From NCBI GenBank assembly GCA_027004335.1, contig JALTID010000218.1, positions 1 to 6,923 on the forward strand: 6,923 nt of DNA. The letters run 5' to 3'. Numbering within the stretch: position 1 is the stretch's first letter; each line of letters begins with the position of its first letter. Made by a program: the position numbers and the translations under genes. This DNA comes from JALTID01 sp027004335 [NCBI: bacterium]. GTDB lineage: Bacteria; JALSQH01. A model generated the notes under the pieces. That model had not been told where the DNA came from and did not search any database. It saw nothing but the letters and a program-made list of their open reading frames with translations. Positions 350 to 6,923 of the stretch are shown here, one piece after another.

Positions 350-1501
350 TTACCCGATCCCCCCCCTTCTAAGCAGTTCTTTGTAGATCACGAATCTCTG
401 AATCTCACTGGTGCCTGCGCCAATTTCCATTAGTTTAGCGTCTCTTGCCAATCTTTCCACCGGGAAATCCCTTGTATATCCGTATCCCCCCAGTATTTGA
501 ACCGCGTTTAACGCTGCGGTGGTTGCTGCTTCTGAAGCAAAGACCTTGGCCATGGCTGCTTCCATGTTTGCCTTTTCACCGTTTAATGCCTTGAATGCAG
601 CGGTATATACCAGATTCCTGGCAGCGTTGTAAAGGATGGTCATATTTGCAATCTTTTCTTGGATCATCTGGAAATTGCCTATAGGCTGTCCAAATTGCTT
701 TCTCTCCTGTGCATATCTCAGACTGATCTCAAGGGACTCTCTTATAATTCCAAGAGAAATACCTGATAAAGTTATTCTTTCTATATCAAGGTTCTGAAGC
801 ATTGCATATAATCCTCCGTCCTCTTCCCCCATTAAATTCTCCGCAGGTACGATGCAATCTTCAAAGTATATTTCTGAAGTGGGAGAACTTCTCATCCCCA
901 TCTTCTTGAGTTTTTTTCCCACATGGAAGCCCGGGAAATTTTTTTCAACGATGAAGATGCTTATACCCCGTTTACCCTTTTCCGGGGATGTTTTTGCATA
1001 CACAACAAAGATGTCTGCTACGGGTCCATTTGTGATGAAAGTTTTTGTTCCGTTCAGGATGTAATGATCACCTTCTTTGACTGCAGTGGTTTTTATGCTT
1101 AATGCGTCCGATCCTGCCTCTGGTTCAGTTAGAGCCATGGCACCTATTTTCCTACCCGAGGCAAGATCGGGAAGATATTTTTTCTTCTGCTCATTTCTGG
1201 CGTGTATTAGTATATTATTGGCGCATAAGATTGTATGATCTCCATAAGATAGGGCGAGTGCAGGATCCACAGCCCCTAACTCTTCCATCACTATGGTAGC
1301 TCCGATAATATCACTTCCTGCTCCACCATACTCCTCTGGAACAGTAATTCCAAGAAGACCTAACTCTGCTAATTTCTGGAAACCTTCTTTGTTGAACTCT
1401 TCCTTTTCATCGTAGATAGGTGCCAGTGGAGCTAACTCCTCCCTGGCAAGCTTCCTCACATTTTCACGAATCATACTCTGTACATCGGAAAATTTAAACA
1501 T
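350..1501 (-). CDS. acyl-CoA dehydrogenase, isovaleryl-CoA dehydrogenase-like
   Basis: FAD flavoenzyme of 383 residues, full family length, that would oxidise an acyl-CoA to the 2-enoyl-CoA and pass electrons to an electron-transfer flavoprotein in the cytosol. Order: N-terminal helical domain (about 1-118), beta domain with LTEPEAGSD (124-132) and FITNGP (155-160), C-terminal helical domain with [12 protein letters not shown] (267-278), [13 protein letters not shown] (335-347) and [11 protein letters not shown] (359-369). The short/medium-chain enzymes have their catalytic Glu in the last motif; here that place is Ala362. The LDIER segment supplies Glu241 where isovaleryl-CoA dehydrogenase has its base (Glu254 in the human enzyme). 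This and the [12 protein letters not shown] segment favour the isovaleryl/branched-chain type, though exact substrate is unproven. Start: ATG at 1501, preceded by GGGAG with a 6-base spacer. It lies 31 bases after the kinase gene, with a candidate promoter of its own. No ETF or leucine-catabolism gene is in view. An 8-G run lies in its last codons. Confidence 0.93.
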
Positions 1502-1529: not shown

Positions 1530-1559
1530 ATTTTAGCATGAAGAATTTCTGTGTGGCAA
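1530..1559 (-). promoter_or_regulatory. candidate sigma-70-type promoter for the acyl-CoA dehydrogenase
   Basis: On the minus strand TTGCCA (1559-1554, one mismatch to TTGACA) is followed after 18 bases by TAAAAT (1535-1530, one mismatch to TATAAT). A TG one base upstream of the latter makes an extended -10. The -10 box overlaps the stop codon of the histidine kinase gene. A start about 7 bases downstream, near 1523, would give a leader of about 20 bases that just includes the GGGAG ribosome site. Seen by eye only. AT-rich DNA gives such matches by chance, but the spacing to the ribosome site is good. It would let the dehydrogenase be expressed apart from the pilus-type genes. Confidence 0.42.
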
Positions 1560-3041
1560 GTTAATATGGAAAGTAGTTCCTACCTGGGAGGAAGACTCTG
1601 CAGAGATTTTGCCCTGGAGCTGATCTATAATTATTGATGATACATAAAGCCCAAGACCTGTACCTTTCCCTGGTTCTTTTGTGGTGTAGAATGGAAGAAA
1701 GATTTTTTTGATGTTTTCATTCTCGATTCCGATTCCATTATCGGAGATGGATATTAAGACTTTTTCATTTTCCTTTTTCGCCGAGAGCTTGATTTTTCCT
1801 CCAGGGGAAGCACCAAATTTTTCCCTTATTGCGTCTGCAGCATTTATCAGCAGGTTTAGAATTACCTGAAGAAGTCTTTCCCCATCTGTGCAGAGAGTTA
1901 CATTTTCAGCTTTAATTTCAAGTTCAATGTTTTTAAGTTTCCCCTGGACATTAAGAATCTCTGTTGCTCTGTTTATGATTTCCTTAAGCTCTGTTTTTTT
2001 TAGATGCCCTTTTGATGGTCTTGAGAAATTGAGGAGGGTTTTGATGAGATTGTTAATCCTCTCACCTTCGGAGAGAATTCTTTTGACAAAATCCCTATCT
2101 TCCTCTGATAAGGTTCCTGTTTTGAGCATAATCTGCGCAAGCCCAATTATAGAGGTTATAGGGTTACCAACCTCGTGGGCGAGTCCTGAGGTCATCTGAC
2201 CAATTAGGGCTAACTTTTCGCTTCTAATTATCTCCTCCTGCATCTCTTTCAATTTTGAATATGCTTCGTTTAATTCCTTTATCTGATCAAGGATAGTTTC
2301 TCTATCCTCCTTAAGCTTTTCAGACATTTCATACATTGACTCTGAGAGTAGTCCAAATTCATCTCCAGAGGGATAGGGTTTTCTGGTGAGAAATTCACCC
2401 CTCCCCACTTTATCAGAAGCTTCTGTTAGTTTCTGGATAGGGAGAATAACTTTTTTACCAGTTACCCAGAGCAGTAGAGCTATAATAAGGATGGTGGTAC
2501 TCAGGATGTAGAAGAAGATTATTTTAAGGATCCTTCCGGTCACCATGTTTAGCCATTTCAGATTATATCTTATGAGTAGTTTTAGATTTCCTCTCCCATT
2601 CCAGAAGAAATCTGCCCAGTAATATCTGGAGAGGGTAAAGGTTCTCCGGGAAAAATAGATTTTTTTTGAGAGCTTCTCCTTTTCTGAAGCAAGGAAATAT
2701 TCCACTTCTTTTTTATAATTGGGAATTTTTCCATAAATAAAAACAGGTTCCCACCTGTAAAAAACAACTATTCCAAGCAGGATGCCGCTTTTTTTCAGAG
2801 GATCTACTATCCATCTTGAGAGTGTTTCAATATCTATCTCTTTGCTTTTCTCGGTAGAATTTTCAAGATAGTTCACCGTGGCTTCGGTGAAAGCCTGAAG
2901 ATTTACCATTTGTGATTTCAGAACTTCAGTTTCAACGATTTTAATTACACTCCAGCTTATCAGAAGGACCATCAGAAGCAGAAGGAGCATATACCAGCTT
3001 ATAAGGTTGAAAGAGAGTGAGCGAAATAATTTGGGTTTCAT
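1533..3041 (-). CDS. membrane sensor histidine kinase, HAMP-containing (possible PilS/NtrB-like role)
   Basis: Sensor kinase of 502 residues that would autophosphorylate on His and pass the phosphate to a response regulator not in this window. Layout: membrane segment 1 (about 13-35), an extracytoplasmic region of about 135 residues with no motif I recognise, membrane segment 2 (about 171-193), a HAMP linker (about 194-246), a coiled coil (about 246-275), and the dimerisation/phosphoacceptor domain with His289 in LAHEVGNPI. The ATP-binding domain follows, with N box NLLINAADA (N396, N400), G1 DNGIGI (434-439), F box IFLPFYTT (447-454) and G2 GKGTGLGL (458-465). All catalytic boxes are intact. 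The HEVGNP form is common in kinases partnered with NtrC-type regulators. Only 4 bases separate it from the pilD-like gene upstream, so they are probably co-transcribed. A stop codon three codons upstream in frame leaves ATG 3041 as the natural start, although its ribosome site is poor (GAG one base before the ATG). Pilus-related signalling is inferred only from position. Confidence 0.93.
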   Translation of the reverse strand: MKPKLFRSLSFNLISWYMLLLLLMVLLISWSVIKIVETEVLKSQMVNLQAFTEATVNYLENSTEKSKEIDIETLSRWIVDPLKKSGILLGIVVFYRWEPVFIYGKIPNYKKEVEYFLASEKEKLSKKIYFSRRTFTLSRYYWADFFWNGRGNLKLLIRYNLKWLNMVTGRILKIIFFYILSTTILIIALLLWVTGKKVILPIQKLTEASDKVGRGEFLTRKPYPSGDEFGLLSESMYEMSEKLKEDRETILDQIKELNEAYSKLKEMQEEIIRSEKLALIGQMTSGLAHEVGNPITSIIGLAQIMLKTGTLSEEDRDFVKRILSEGERINNLIKTLLNFSRPSKGHLKKTELKEIINRATEILNVQGKLKNIELEIKAENVTLCTDGERLLQVILNLLINAADAIREKFGASPGGKIKLSAKKENEKVLISISDNGIGIENENIKKIFLPFYTTKEPGKGTGLGLYVSSIIIDQLQGKISAESSSQVGTTFHINLPHRNSSC

Positions 3042-3045
3042 ACTC

Positions 3046-3858
3046 TTATATTAACAGTAATTGTACAAGATTGTCCACTCCGATCAGGTATGTAATTATT
3101 GCGGCTACCGCAATAAAGGGGCCAAAGGGGATGTACCTTTTTTCACGGAGTTCTTCTTCATCAACTTTTTTCCCGGTAAGAAGTACCAGGGGATATCCAA
3201 CTATGATTCCGAGAATTGATCCAATTATCATTGTGAAAAGCACACCGTAAAGCCCCATGAATGTACCTGTAATGGCAAAAAGCTTTATATCGCCACCTCC
3301 TAAGGCAGGTTGCTCCATCTTTTTTATTTTTTCAAAAGTGATTGCGATTATCAGTGGTAACCCACCACCAAATAGAAGACCTATGATGCCATCCAGAATT
3401 TTTACAGGAAGCAGTTGGAGAAAGAGAAGAACAAGCCCGATCACCAGAAGTGAGTAGGAAATTGTATCTGGGATCGTGAAAGTATCCCAGTCTATGAACG
3501 AAATTACCAGAAGGCAACCGGAGAGGAAAAAGTAGATAAAGTACTCAAGTATAGATGAGGCTCTCCAGAGCACAAGAATTGAAATTAACCCTGTTAATGC
3601 TTCTACCAGAGGGTATCTTGGAGAGATTTTTGTTCCACAGTATCTGCATCTTCCTCTGAGCATTATGTAGCTTATTACTGGTATATTATCATACCATTTG
3701 AGCTTATGGCCACACACAGGGCAGTGACTGGGGGGGTAAGCTATTGAAATCTTGTTAGGGATTCTGTAAATACAGACATTGTAAAAGCTCCCCCAGATCG
3801 TTCCCCAGATGAAGGCAAGAAAATAGAGGAGCCAGTCAGGAATATTGTAGATATACAT
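3046..3858 (-). CDS. pilD: type IV prepilin peptidase / N-methyltransferase PilD
   Basis: Polytopic inner-membrane aspartyl protease of 270 residues. Family members cut the leader of type IV pilins and type II secretion pseudopilins and methylate the new N-terminus. The N-terminal GSFYNVCIYRIP motif (23-34) is followed by two CxxC pairs (Cys46/Cys49 and Cys71/Cys74) around KWYDNIPVISY, marking the bifunctional A24A form with a zinc-binding cytosolic domain. The catalytic aspartates are expected at Asp123 (in SFIDWDTFTIPD) and Asp190 (in GGGDIK). Multiple hydrophobic segments fill the rest, and length is near the usual 250-290. The start ATG overlaps the preceding stop as TAATG, which suggests translational coupling. 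No pilin or pseudopilin gene is in view; its substrates must be encoded elsewhere. A 7-C run on this strand (3736-3730) lies just before the first CxxC. Confidence 0.96.
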   Translation of the reverse strand: MYIYNIPDWLLYFLAFIWGTIWGSFYNVCIYRIPNKISIAYPPSHCPVCGHKLKWYDNIPVISYIMLRGRCRYCGTKISPRYPLVEALTGLISILVLWRASSILEYFIYFFLSGCLLVISFIDWDTFTIPDTISYSLLVIGLVLLFLQLLPVKILDGIIGLLFGGGLPLIIAITFEKIKKMEQPALGGGDIKLFAITGTFMGLYGVLFTMIIGSILGIIVGYPLVLLTGKKVDEEELREKRYIPFGPFIAVAAIITYLIGVDNLVQLLLI

Positions 3859-3869
3859 TAACCACCTTT
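3856..3869 (-). promoter_or_regulatory. ribosome site and TAATG stop-start overlap of pilD
   Basis: Read on the minus strand, AAAGGTGG (3869-3862) lies two bases before an ATG whose A is also the last base of the preceding gene's TAA (3860-3858). The Shine-Dalgarno match is good but unusually close to the ATG, which suits translation by reinitiation from the upstream small gene. The next in-frame Met is residue 66, beyond the essential first CxxC, so no other start is reasonable. Confidence 0.6.
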
Positions 3870-4076
3870 AAGCATTTTTAAGATTATGTATGCAATCACG
3901 GCAAAGATAAGCCCCGAAAAACCTATTATAATTCCTGTTACTTTCTGATATCTTGGTTTTACATAGAAGAAAACGAAGAAGCCAAGCAAGCTGGAGAATA
4001 ACCCAAGAACAATATAAAAGTAGTAAATTCCAGTGTTTTTCATTTTGGTTTCAGATCCCTTTGTATTCCATATCAA
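3858..4076 (-). CDS. small two-transmembrane protein between ABC permease and pilD
   Basis: Family not recognised. The longest form has 72 residues. After a polar start come two hydrophobic segments (about 18-38 and 47-67), separated by a short basic loop (VKPRYQKVTG), with a KMLKGG tail, as in a helical hairpin. The start is uncertain: Met1 at 4076 has no good ribosome site, while Met12 at 4043 would give a 61-residue protein beginning MKNTGIYYF, with GGGAT about 11 bases upstream. The spacing resembles that of the permease gene, so I slightly prefer Met12. It ends in a TAATG overlap with pilD and starts 25 to 58 bases after the permease, so it is probably co-expressed with both. A small partner of the permease or of PilD is possible, but nothing in the sequence proves it. 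Its conserved place in the operon and clear membrane pattern argue that it is real. Confidence 0.7.
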   Translation of the reverse strand: MIWNTKGSETKMKNTGIYYFYIVLGLFSSLLGFFVFFYVKPRYQKVTGIIIGFSGLIFAVIAYIILKMLKGG

Positions 4077-4101
4077 CGTATATTTTCCTATTTTTATCCT
4101 G

Positions 4102-4872
4102 TTAATACAATTCTTTCTTTTCGAAGATTAATGTTGCGAGGAGAAGCATAAAAAGCATATAGGCTACTGCATAGAGAATAGAAAATAGAGCATAACCGCC
4201 GGGGAGAGCTGTATTGTGGACGACCTGATTTTTGATATTTAGATTTGAAAAGTTTGGAAGAATTATATAGAAGAAATCTATGAGGAGCCTTTCCCCAGAT
4301 GAGAGAGAAATCCTGGAAATTAGAACTTCTAATTCCCCAAGTGAATTTCCAATAAAGTATATGGTTGCAGCAAATAATCCGCTCAGTATAGGGGAGGAAA
4401 AAGTGGAAAAGAAAATAGTGATTGAAATTGTGAGTATTATTATAAGGTATATAAAAAGTCCCCCTAAAAGTATAATGGGATAAACTCTCGCTCCTACTAT
4501 GAAAAGAAAGAGAATTACCACAATAAGCATCAAGATTGTCTGAAAAAGTAAGGCAATGGAGAGACCTAAAAATTTTCCAAGTATAAATTCCCATCTCTTG
4601 ATCGGTTTTGGAATGATGGTAAAAATTGTTTTTCTTTGAATTTCGTTGTAAATAATCCCGGTTCCTGTAACAATAGCCATCGTTACACCTAGTAGCTCGA
4701 TTCCAGCCAGACCAAAATTTATTACAAACCTGGAGACTTCTCCCATGGTAAAGCTACCTAAAATAGATGATATTCCCAGAAGAATTATCAGGAAGAAAAC
4801 CACCGTGTATAGTAACTTATTCCTTATAGCTTCACGGCATGTATTTACAATGACAGCTTTAATCCTGTGCAT
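4102..4872 (-). CDS. ABC-2 type transporter permease (PilI/NosY-like)
   Basis: Integral membrane subunit, 256 residues from the preferred start. Hydrophobic segments lie at about 20-42, 52-74, 100-126, 131-155, 158-172 and 227-250. Between the second and third is a cytosolic loop with IQRKTIFTIIPKPIKRWEF and then LGKFLG. This is the hallmark of the ABC-2 permease group that includes NosY-like proteins (COG1277 type). It would pair with the ATPase encoded just upstream. The frame could open at ATG 4941, but that would overlap the ATPase gene by 83 bases with a polar, non-family N-terminus. ATG 4872, reading MHRIKAVIVNTCREAI, matches family N-termini and overlaps by only 14 bases, with GGAGGG 11 bases before it. 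The exported substrate is unknown. Position next to pilD suggests a PilI-like role in pilus assembly; a general efflux or membrane-maintenance ABC is the alternative. Confidence 0.9.
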   Translation of the reverse strand: MHRIKAVIVNTCREAIRNKLLYTVVFFLIILLGISSILGSFTMGEVSRFVINFGLAGIELLGVTMAIVTGTGIIYNEIQRKTIFTIIPKPIKRWEFILGKFLGLSIALLFQTILMLIVVILFLFIVGARVYPIILLGGLFIYLIIILTISITIFFSTFSSPILSGLFAATIYFIGNSLGELEVLISRISLSSGERLLIDFFYIILPNFSNLNIKNQVVHNTALPGGYALFSILYAVAYMLFMLLLATLIFEKKELY

Positions 4873-5785
4873 ACCTGCGGTATCCCTCCATAAAAAGGTC
4901 TTCCAGGAGGATTCTTCTCGGGCAAAATGAGAGGATCTCAATATCTTCCCTTAAAAGCTCTTTGAGAAATTTATCTGCTTCTTCCCTCGTAGAAAATTCT
5001 AACAAAAGAGAGTTTGTCTGGTGTTTAAAATGTAAATTCTGCTGTTCAACCCACTTCAGGTACTTTTTTGGTATTTCTATTTCATATCCAGTAGAATGTT
5101 TTGCTGTTAAACTCTCTATGTCTCCTTCTTCAACAATTTTTCCTTTAATAAGTATAGCTACTCTATCACAGATCATCTCAACATCAGAGAGTATATGGGA
5201 AGAAAAAATGATCGTTTTGCCGTGTTCCTTTAAACTTAAGATAATTTCTTTGAGTTCCTTTCTCCCTACAGGATCAAGTCCAGTCATTGGTTCATCCAGG
5301 ATCAGGAGCTCAGGATCATTTATCAATGCCTGAGCCACCCCTACTCTCTGGATCATGCCTTTTGAGAATTTTTTAATGGGGATATCTGCCCAGGAAGAAA
5401 GATTAACAGTTTTTAGTATATCTTCAACTCTGTTTTGTATATCTTTTCCAGAAATGGAGAAGAGCTCTCCGTAGAATGTAAGTATTTCTCTCGGGGTTAG
5501 ATAGGTGTAAAAGTAGGGATTTTCTGGGAGAAAACCTATCTTCTGTTTTGCTCTTAGAGAGGAAGGACTCTCTCCGAAGATACTGACCTCACCACTGTCT
5601 GGATGTATCAAACCTGTTAACAATTTAAGGAGTGTGGTTTTACCTGCCCCATTATGGCCCAGGAGCCCGAAGGTTTCTCCTTCTTTCACAGAGAAGGTTA
5701 CTCCTCTCAGAGCAGTAATTTTCTTTCTGACGATATGTCCTGTGGGGTATGATTTTTCTACATTTTTAACCTCTATAATCATCAT
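4859..5785 (-). CDS. ABC transporter ATP-binding protein (PilH/NosF-like)
   Basis: Cytosolic ATPase of 308 residues that would power the adjacent permease. Seen in order: Walker A GHNGAGKTT (43-51), FLPENPYFYTYLT at the Q-loop position (Glu88 in place of Gln, as is common in NosF/CcmA-like ATPases), signature FSKGM (140-144), Walker B LLILDEP (160-166, with Asp164 and Glu165), D-loop GLDP (169-172) and switch His197 in FSSHIL. All nucleotide-hydrolysis elements are intact. A C-terminal domain of about 75 residues (235-308) follows, as in ABC-2 exporters with a single nucleotide-binding domain per chain. Two ATG codons stand in tandem at 5785 and 5782. GAGGAAG before them, with AGGA six bases from the first, favours 5785. 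Its start is one base from the stop of the TPR-like gene, and its end overlaps the permease by 14 bases, so the three form one translational unit. Family is certain; the PilH role is inferred from gene order. Confidence 0.95.
   Translation of the reverse strand: MMIIEVKNVEKSYPTGHIVRKKITALRGVTFSVKEGETFGLLGHNGAGKTTLLKLLTGLIHPDSGEVSIFGESPSSLRAKQKIGFLPENPYFYTYLTPREILTFYGELFSISGKDIQNRVEDILKTVNLSSWADIPIKKFSKGMIQRVGVAQALINDPELLILDEPMTGLDPVGRKELKEIILSLKEHGKTIIFSSHILSDVEMICDRVAILIKGKIVEEGDIESLTAKHSTGYEIEIPKKYLKWVEQQNLHFKHQTNSLLLEFSTREEADKFLKELLREDIEILSFCPRRILLEDLFMEGYRRYAQD
4884..4889 (-). promoter_or_regulatory. Shine-Dalgarno site deciding the permease start
   Basis: GGAGGG on the minus strand, 11 bases before ATG 4872-4870 and inside the 3' end of the ATPase gene. 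Spacing is long but within the usable range. No comparable site was noted for the more distant ATG at 4941. It supports the shorter 256-residue permease. Confidence 0.55.
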
Positions 5786-5786
5786 A

Positions 5787-6647
5787 CTACTTCCTCAGAA
5801 AGATCTTTATTCTTTTATTATATGCAGTGTTTTTCACTTTACCATCTGGTGTGAGATAGTATTTACCTCCAAAAGGGTCTCTGGGAATATAAGAGAGGTA
5901 ACCTTTATGTATAAGTTCCTCAAGGGAGGATGGTAACCTCCCTTCTCTTCTTTTAAATCTTGCCAATGCTTCTTCAATGAGTCTAAAGTTTCTCTCTGCG
6001 AGGATCATCTTTATTTTTCTTAATATATGAGCCTTTGCATGAGGATTTTTAGTATGATTATATATTTCCAGAAGGATCTTGATTGCAGTATCTGCATCAT
6101 TTGTTTTTGCCATGAGTTTTATTGCTAAACTGACAATAAAGGAAGGTCTATTAGGTTTTGTTGCTGCTTCTTTGAAGTAGAATGCAGCTTCTCTGTAATC
6201 TCCTTTGAAATACATATAGATAAAACCAGTCAGGAACCACAGGTACCACTTATCGGGAAGATACCTCAAACTTTTCTTAAGAATTCTTATTGCATCGTTC
6301 GGATCATGAGCCTCCCAAGGTAAAATAGTACCGGCAAATCTGTATGGATAGAAAAAATAGGGATCCAGATCAGTAACTGCGTTGAGAAGATCTACAAGAT
6401 ACTTAAAGTTCCTATCAGTCACGATATGCTCGCCTGTATATGCAAGGGTTTTCATCCATAGGATATCAGCAACAACATTGGTATAACCTAGGGAGATCAG
6501 TTTGGCATACCTTTCTATAGGGAGGTAATAAAGGTCTTCAACCACTTTTTTCGGATATGCGTGTATCTTATTATTGGACCAGTATATTATCGCACCAAGA
6601 AGCAGCACAACAAAAATTTTCAGGGGGTAGGCTCTTTTATTCTGCAT
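5787..6647 (-). CDS. membrane-anchored TPR-like protein with pseudopilin-like C-terminal motif (positional PilG candidate)
   Basis: Protein of 286 residues. A short basic start and one hydrophobic segment (about 9-23) form a signal anchor, so most of the chain should lie outside the cytoplasm. Then comes YAKLISLGYTNVVADILWMK (47-66), a segment I know from TPR proteins of Deltaproteobacteria-like genomes, followed by degenerate TPR-like helical pairs (about 80-225), e.g. around DPYFFYPYRFAGTI and PDKWYLWFLTGFIY. The C-terminus (224-271) reads IEEALARFKRREGRLP, SLEELIHKGYL, IPRDPFGGKYYL and DGKV, a pattern much like the end of type II secretion major pseudopilins. There is no prepilin cleavage motif at the N-terminus. 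It overlaps the upstream gene by 28 bases; AGGA lies two bases before the ATG, and the next Met (65) would lose the anchor. It precedes the ABC ATPase by one base, so it is likely the extracytoplasmic partner of that transporter. PilG equivalence is by position only. Confidence 0.82.
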   Translation of the reverse strand: MQNKRAYPLKIFVVLLLGAIIYWSNNKIHAYPKKVVEDLYYLPIERYAKLISLGYTNVVADILWMKTLAYTGEHIVTDRNFKYLVDLLNAVTDLDPYFFYPYRFAGTILPWEAHDPNDAIRILKKSLRYLPDKWYLWFLTGFIYMYFKGDYREAAFYFKEAATKPNRPSFIVSLAIKLMAKTNDADTAIKILLEIYNHTKNPHAKAHILRKIKMILAERNFRLIEEALARFKRREGRLPSSLEELIHKGYLSYIPRDPFGGKYYLTPDGKVKNTAYNKRIKIFLRK

Positions 6648-6923
6648 AGTCCTGTGATATTGCTATTATATATTAGTTTGCAGTGTGAAGCAATATAGGA
6701 AAGAAATTTTGCTCTTTTTTCCTCTGGTATATTATTTTCAATAAATCTGGCTAAGAAATATTTATTATAGGCAAGACAGGTAACGTTGTGACTTGTGAAA
6801 ATATTCATGTTATTTGTTTTCCATGCATGGATCAACCAGGAGCCCTCCACATTATATTTTGGTTCAAACATGAAGGGAATGTCAAGGTAATAGTCTCTCT
6901 TACCAAGGAAGTACAGAAATATC
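6620..6923 (-). CDS. C-terminal fragment of a probable membrane glycosyltransferase (GT-C/GT39-like)
   Basis: Partial gene: the frame is open to the right edge, so the ATG at 6871 is internal and the start lies outside. About 100 residues are visible. They begin IFLYFLGKRDYYLDIPFMF, continue with WLIHAWKTNN, TSHNVTCLAYNKYFLARFIE, IPEEKRAKFLSYI and KLIYNSNITGLCRIK, and end EPTP. The pattern 'G.R.YYLD.PF', then a 'V..L..N..F..R' strand, then a closing 'K..Y....L.R..' strand resembles the small soluble C-terminal domain of polytopic GT-C glycosyltransferases of the mannosyltransferase type. I recognise this as a pattern, not by alignment, so the call is tentative. It ends 28 bases inside the TPR-like gene, which suggests it belongs to the same transcript or runs into it. 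The active-site and membrane parts are outside the window. Confidence 0.5.
   Translation of the reverse strand, partial: IFLYFLGKRDYYLDIPFMFEPKYNVEGSWLIHAWKTNNMNIFTSHNVTCLAYNKYFLARFIENNIPEEKRAKFLSYIASHCKLIYNSNITGLCRIKEPTP

Follow-up and report, generated by a model that had tools for sequence, protein, structure and literature searches.

A PilG-PilH-PilI-type ABC transporter module with a prepilin peptidase gene in a candidate-phylum bacterium

The gene string of the source contig

We analysed a window of 6,923 bases that comprises one entire contig (JALTID010000218.1, C218) of the 1.5-Mb, 80% complete draft genome of a candidate-phylum bacterium (GCA_027004335.1, here G000). At positions 3046-6647 its minus strand carries five genes that a first-pass annotation had proposed to be a distant form of the PilG-PilH-PilI-PilD block of Myxococcus xanthus: they encode an anchored protein resembling tetratricopeptide repeat (TPR) proteins, an ATP-binding cassette (ABC) ATPase, an ABC-2 permease, a small membrane protein, and a prepilin peptidase. 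We consider it close to certain that these genes form a genuine PilG-PilH-PilI ABC module, accompanied by a prepilin peptidase and a kinase of the PilS2 type, in a host with other type IV pilus parts, since homology, gene order, and trees all agree on this identity. Open reading frame (ORF) inspection and Pfam matches confirmed the annotated string, with all five genes intact, on one strand, and almost without gaps. The string also extends beyond these genes, to a HisKA kinase downstream and a truncated membrane protein upstream, and intergenic gaps do not exceed 58 bases from pilG through the kinase. Read from the contig edge, the minus-strand features are:

6620..6923, minus strand: C-terminal fragment of a GT-C/protein O-mannosyltransferase (PMT)-like membrane protein, cut by the contig edge; matches a 517-amino-acid (aa) protein of genome G001 (E 2.5e-22)
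5787..6647, minus strand: pilG, 286 aa, a single N-terminal membrane helix plus a TPR-like domain (PilG profile, AlphaFold)
4859..5785, minus strand: pilH, ABC ATPase, 308 aa (PF00005, 2.3e-34; among the PilH rows of the tree)
4102..4872, minus strand: pilI, ABC-2 permease, 256 aa, overlapping pilH by 14 bases (PF12679, 7.5e-11; PilI clade; NosY-like predicted fold)
3858..4043, minus strand: two-helix small membrane protein, 61 aa, adjoining pilD (helices judged by eye)
3046..3858, minus strand: pilD, prepilin peptidase (PF06750, 1.7e-38; PF01478, 1.5e-16)
1533..3041, minus strand: PilS2-like sensor histidine kinase (HisKA/HATPase_c; kinase tree)
350..1501, minus strand: acyl-CoA dehydrogenase, after the kinase

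Amino-acid identity to G001, the single other genome of the same phylum in our sample, is 65-74% for the five focal genes and 57-78% across the seven string genes compared, in which most changes fall at third codon positions. In the five focal genes these positions show 2.0-2.5 times the changes of first positions and 3-5 times those of second positions, and by this excess all five ORFs behave as real genes, including the 61-aa protein (74% identical to its G001 copy, with codon change of the coding type). Translation probably starts at 4872 for the permease and at 4043 for the small protein, both later than in the longest ORFs. PilD carries A24_N and A24 domains over the cut-off, as well as tetracysteine, DWD, and GGGDIKL motifs read in its sequence, which we take to be prepilin peptidase motifs with catalytic aspartates. 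The 517-aa G001 counterpart of the upstream fragment has no Pfam family itself; its relative at locus L132 scores PF02366/PF13231. On the strand opposite to the pil string, positions 2-346 encode the C-terminus of a DUF2207 membrane protein with a glycine-rich tail. A megablast search of E. coli genomes gave no near DNA match to the source stretch.

Type IV pilus genes, which the annotation had suggested looking for in the same genome, were found on other contigs. Contig C28 encodes PilM, PilN, PilO, and PilP, plus the start of an AMIN-domain protein in the PilQ position at the contig edge, and two PilB/GspE-type ATPases and one PilT-type ATPase (types assigned by length) score over the cut-off across the genome. 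Contig C136 holds one PilB/GspE-type ATPase with four prepilin-like genes, a set that probably belongs to type II secretion. The source contig ends in the fragment gene upstream of pilG, and neither pilA nor pilBTC is on it. G001 has a pilin gene upstream of the module, in the same orientation and separated from it by three genes (TMEM260-like, 198 aa, and 517 aa).

Identity of the block

From 6647 to 1533, the order pilG-pilH-pilI-61-aa gene-pilD-PilS2-like kinase is colinear with Myxococcus pilG-H-I-D-S2, plus one small gene. The altered layout that had been proposed for this lineage thus did not hold as regards gene order, and stands only in that one small gene is added and pilR2 is missing. 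Homologues fill the pilG, pilH, and pilI slots of a pilB-T-C-S-R-A-G-H-I-x-D cluster in genome G034, where Pfam confirmed the labels B, T, C, S, R, A, I, and D, and phmmer supplied that of H, G having no Pfam family. A Myxococcus-like genome (G336, 9.0 Mb in a single contig, not DK1622 itself) reads pilB-T-C-S-R-A-G-H-I-D-S2-R2, with a ribF-like gene adjoining pilB; for this cluster and for that of G034, the ribF name of the end gene was assigned by eye. The PilA of this genome is closest to PDB 8tj2 (E 3.7e-110), which is presumably M. xanthus PilA, and our PilG profile (A1) scores 232 bits on the protein in its pilG slot. This gene order fits the M. xanthus operon pilA-G-H-I, given as MXAN_5783-5780 in a passage of PMC3546991, and the two pilRS pairs and ribF mentioned in the pil cluster passages of PMC6060248. 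Locus L101 shows the Myxococcus-like order, and G135 reads pilB-T-C-S-R-A-A-H-I-G-x-M-N. Gene labels in the Myxococcus-like genome, in G135, and in the named loci below derive from our own ORF calling with phmmer and hmmsearch and not from curated annotation.

The trees point in the same direction. The source permease falls inside a clade of 30 PilI rows (Shimodaira-Hasegawa-like approximate likelihood ratio test, SH-aLRT, 91), apart from 16 NosY rows (SH-aLRT 92), and a PilI profile, with 15 rows built in, gives 141-363 bits on the 30 PilI rows vs at most 55 on the 16 NosY rows. Likewise, the source ATPase groups with PilH rows, 29 of which are split from 15 NosF rows (NosF support 96). The kinase groups with kinases trailing pilD, apart from PilS1, with an SH-aLRT of 93 (eight rows, L102 included) or 85 (nine rows), after removal of two of the 20 rows that had no H-box match; one of the nine kinases trailing pilD, that of L164, falls with PilS1 instead.

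A locus on a Candidatus Manganitrophus plasmid (L243, CP114559.1, positions 2487-6995) consists of a prepilin gene, a PilH-like ATPase branching within the PilH set, and genes for 443-aa and 276-aa proteins, followed by a PilZ protein gene; it is perhaps a plasmid-borne variant of the pilus ABC system. A tblastn search of plasmids returned no PilI match.

Distribution across named loci and sampled genomes

A scan with the PilI pattern yielded 558 stretches and 530 relatives, of which we kept the best 80, mostly close relatives; PilI was the sole basis of the ranking. Three of these loci (L121, L192, and L184) very likely are the seed genomes G001, G057, and G241. Taxonomy placed 38 of the 80 in a phylum, with two 'Deltaproteobacteria' titles assigned to Myxococcota, and lineages are otherwise quoted by record title: most titles read Aminicenantes, others Acidobacteriota, Nitrospira, or Desulfobacterales, and single loci Latescibacterota and Cloacimonetes. 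Among these best 80 loci, PilI is adjoined by PilG in 75 and by PilH in 74, and the PilG profile matches 77 at 1e-20. A survey of ABC-2 pairs near pilD had been proposed with the initial annotation, and PilD was indeed found downstream of PilI in 58 loci from several lineages. A pilin-like ORF occurs somewhere in 17 loci, and core pil genes other than pilD in three. The most frequent order was H-I-G-D, in 45 of 80 loci (eight Aminicenantota, seven Acidobacteriota, one Bacillota from a 'Clostridiales' draft, and 29 without placement, most of them with Aminicenantes titles). The order G-H-I-x-D occurs in four loci, whose titles are Desulfobacterales, Deltaproteobacteria, Zymogenus, and plain 'bacterium'. 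The 12 Nitrospirota loci include ten with PilG and PilH and none with PilD in reach; six of them (Nitrospira and a Nitrospiraceae draft) read pilA-G-H-I. The suggestion that the transporter is not a myxobacterial peculiarity therefore stands in that the module occurs in several unrelated lineages, but only partly as a novelty, since Deltaproteobacteria cases already appear in the pil cluster passages of PMC6060248.

We also searched a sample of 290 genomes with a PilG profile of 17 rows, taking E 2.5e-20 (PilG) and E 4e-27 (PilI) as cut-offs for strong matches. At E 1e-6 the PilG profile matches 155 genomes; many of the weak matches are probably ordinary TPR proteins, and only the 87 strong matches, in 84 genomes, were therefore counted. 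PilI lies within 3 kb of 70 of these 87 (of 56 of 70 matches when seed genomes are left out), and a PilI match occurs somewhere in 81 of the 84 genomes. The 84 strong-PilG genomes include 83 with PilM, vs 162 of the 206 others (245 of 290 overall; Fisher p = 1e-6), and 82 with PilD, vs 162 of the 206 (244 of 290 overall; p = 8e-6); these p-values take no account of relatedness and are indicative only, and the presence calls for the 84 genomes were made by eye. Conversely, 83 of the 245 PilM-positive genomes have a strong PilG match, mostly adjoining PilI. In the phylum of G029, judged partly from pil gene order to be Myxococcota, 51 of 58 genomes match PilG at 1e-10.

Proposed role, alternatives, and related systems

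The predicted structure of PilI (predicted local distance difference test, pLDDT, 85.4; predicted template modelling score 0.85) has NosY chains as its best solved matches (template modelling score, TM, up to 0.69, E 1.2e-4), followed by PmtCD, and NosY is also the single PDB relative found by sequence at E 0.01 or better (1.4e-5). NosDFY is not a plain pump but an ABC complex by which a partner outside the membrane is moved. The predicted NosY-like fold of PilI makes ATP-driven mechanical work on pilin handling our favoured, though unproven, mechanism. In the AlphaFold model of PilG (pLDDT 88.5), one long N-terminal helix precedes a TPR-like helical stack; the fold matches listed, with Z up to 12.7, comprise TPR-type and other helical proteins and may reflect only a common arrangement.

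As a tentative scheme, for which we would put the odds at somewhat below even, two PilI permeases and two PilH ATPases would form an inner-membrane ABC core of NosFY type, with PilG, held by its one-helix anchor, as an arm whose TPR surface may bind pilins or the peptidase PilD. ATP cycles of PilH would move PilG, and this motion could ease the passage of mature pilins from PilD or the membrane pool to the PilC/PilB assembly platform. In this scheme we infer the complex and its stoichiometry, the membrane side of PilG, its ligand, and the mechanical step.

According to the literature, M. xanthus strains mutated in the pilGHI genes show neither social motility nor pili. Passages of PMC3724824 and PMC3924187, citing Wu 1998, credit PilGHI with a need in pilus assembly and with pilin translocation or export, while a passage of PMC6060248 calls experimental data supporting ABC transport by PilGHI unavailable. 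PMC3724824 further states that a pilB Walker A mutation suppresses the polysaccharide defect of pilG, pilH, and pilI deletions, not that of pilC or pilM-Q deletions. The reported pilin-export role, the pilB suppression, and the repeated PilD linkage fit a module acting before assembly, on pilin supply. A bolder version, which we regard as doubtful, would add PilGHI to PilB and PilT as the third engine by which ATP drives type IVa pili; in this engine, a NosFY-like core with a TPR arm (PilG) replacing NosD would, with PilD and the two-helix helper, pull mature pilins from the membrane pool to the assembly platform. If true, this engine would be present in about one-third of the PilM-bearing genomes of a broad sample.

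Taken as a whole, a PilGHI module with the proposed role in pilin hand-on is the best explanation of these data, with a probability of roughly 0.8. The ABC pair lies apart from NosFY; it is adjoined by pilD, pilin, or other pil genes in several lineages; and the source genome has type IV pilus genes. None of the observations that the initial annotation had named as refuting its proposal was thus made. Several observations weigh against this explanation. Identity to Myxococcus-type PilG and PilI is only about 25%. The trees were quick, with SH-aLRT as the sole support measure and long branches flagged, and the strict PilH clade reaches an SH-aLRT of only 44 because the ATPase near the prepilin gene on the Manganitrophus plasmid branches inside it (89 with this ATPase included). 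In the 290-genome sample, PilI is missing from the 3-kb surroundings of 17 of the 87 strong PilG matches, one genome (G130) combines a strong PilG with the absence of any PilM match, and PilD lies within 5 kb of ten of the 87 among the matches listed, or at least 12 of 87 counting G034 and G038; although these PilD and PilM neighbourhood counts are lower bounds, PilD linkage is thus not general in this sample. PilI resembles further ABC-2 folds after NosY, namely PmtCD, ABCG2, and CcmB, and the N side of PilG is more positively charged in 34 of 77 proteins and equal in 16, which leaves its topology unfixed. The initial proposal of a distant PilG-PilH-PilI-PilD block is nevertheless upheld by homology, gene order, and trees, with the PilI clade at 91 and the PilH clade at 44.

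Among the alternatives, an unlikely one, which fares best, is that PilGHI exports a lipid-linked sugar or similar small substrate for pilin modification, and is linked to pil genes through pilin glycosylation. Such a role would suit the GT-C/GT2 genes inside the strings of G001 (TMEM260-like, the 517-aa PMT-like protein, and GT2) and L132 (PMT and GT2-like), the TMEM260-like gene between pilG and pilH in G179, the Wzy_C ligases that neighbour pilin and pilG in G043 and G188, and the piece of a PMT-like gene with which the source string itself opens. However, relatives of six glycosylation query genes were found in just six of the 119 loci searched, five of which had supplied the queries, while the sixth (L050) has a more distant Wzy_C and the PilI of its genome on another contig; we therefore rejected pilin glycosylation as a general function. 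Moreover, pilin glycosylation enzymes often adjoin pilA without an ABC pair. At the locus level, TMEM260-like protein O-mannosyltransferase genes within pil strings are those of L119 (7313-8980) and L032 (11052-13109), one of them directly between pilG and pilH.

We give still less credence to a module for general envelope export or type II secretion that merely neighbours pilD. PilD serves both the type IV pilus and type II secretion, the source genome has the type II secretion-like set on contig C136, and the Aminicenantes H-I-G-D loci mostly have no other pil genes in reach, in keeping with the three of 80 noted above. Against this, Nitrospira, G034, G208, and the Myxococcus-like genome have a pilin gene directly next to pilG or to the ABC pair, pilM is part of the block in G135, G066, and G208, and a strong PilG nearly always comes with PilM in the genome. 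Finally, that the pair is of NosFY type or another unrelated exporter that drifted beside pilD is very improbable: NosY is the closest solved relative of PilI in sequence and fold, but the trees and profile scores reject NosFY membership, placing the permease outside the NosY clade, and NosD (TIGR04247) gave no match at 1e-20 in G000 (a draft) or G001.

The PilGHI module shares with NosDFY an ABC-2 pair, a permease of NosY-like predicted fold (TM 0.69), and an additional non-ABC partner; it differs in that this partner is a TPR protein rather than NosD, in falling into separate clades, and in that NosDFY is not a pilus system. The Pil-Chp proteins PilG, PilH, and PilI of Pseudomonas share names only with this module, PilI there being a CheW-like protein. 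PilG and PilH of that system are response regulators, as stated in a passage of PMC11656802. The M. xanthus PilG-PilH-PilI proteins, listed as MXAN_5782-5780 and TCDB 3.A.1.144.5 in an excerpt of PMC3924187, belong to the same three families as the source proteins and share the G-H-I-D order, a PilS2-type kinase next to it, and type IV pilus genes in the genome. The source differs in its divergence from the Myxococcus-like copies, in the 61-aa gene between pilI and pilD, in an acyl-CoA dehydrogenase in place of pilR2 after the kinase, and in having pilA and pilBTC off the contig. Passages of PMC6060248 quote literature that calls the Myxococcus ABC module unique to that cluster and already report pilGHI matches beyond Myxococcus: type IV pilus genes in Geobacter, Pelobacter, Bdellovibrio, Deferrisoma, and others are laid out as in Myxococcus with some exceptions, and pilDGHI is named for Deferrisoma. 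The clusters in those passages are all from Deltaproteobacteria, whereas ours also carry Aminicenantes, Acidobacteriota, Nitrospirota, Latescibacterota, and Cloacimonetes titles. Among the results listed by open-access literature searches under the module names, no paper describes it for Aminicenantes, Nitrospira, or candidate phyla; subscription journals lay mostly outside that scope. New here are the wide range, much wider than we found described, PilG as a marker, and the small PilD-linked protein. To our knowledge, the textbook pilus machines of Pseudomonas and Neisseria are described without an ABC transporter; PilGHI seems to be a pilus-building component of more general occurrence, and one that is poorly understood. 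With PilG as a defined marker the module can be mapped by anyone, and the role of an ABC motor in pilus building becomes testable across many species.

Scans of Pfam and NCBIfam with 65 PilG members found no dedicated model naming PilG, and a scan of NCBIfam with 15 PilI members found no dedicated PilI model, which may explain why annotation hides the module. Weak PilG matches include TIGR02521 PilW in five of the 65 members (best 1.2e-5) and other families in one to five each. Weaker look-alikes of the 61-aa protein (53-89 aa) lie just ahead of pilD in L168, L169, L170, and L196, with pairwise scores of 47-52 for which there is no null. A tiny two-helix membrane protein thus precedes pilD in more than one lineage (e.g., L168 8512-8694 and L196 8221-8382). 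A weak Pfam match to Rhomboid in a 72-aa frame was disbelieved as an identity for the small protein. A further family of about 200 aa, whose members have a membrane helix at the N-terminus and share a conserved Y-x-P motif, follows pilI in L048, L119, L168, L171, and L196, and in several loci lies between pilI and pilD; L032 has a member at 10474-11070, and the 198-aa G001 homologue sits upstream in the string (5.4e-20, single-target search). Two members of this family scanned against Pfam gave no match.

Positions 210-280 of the PilG profile match some ORFs of about 115-140 aa that at first resembled pseudopilins. A pseudopilin-like C-terminus of PilG was dropped: the five ORFs fetched have no pilin signature, and four resemble small lipoproteins by eye. 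A segment like GRYPxSLxELV...PxDPFGG, found at the PilG C-terminus, also occurs in small lipoprotein-like ORFs (L222-L225), and the PilG of L111 (9912-10949) apparently carries a second copy of it.

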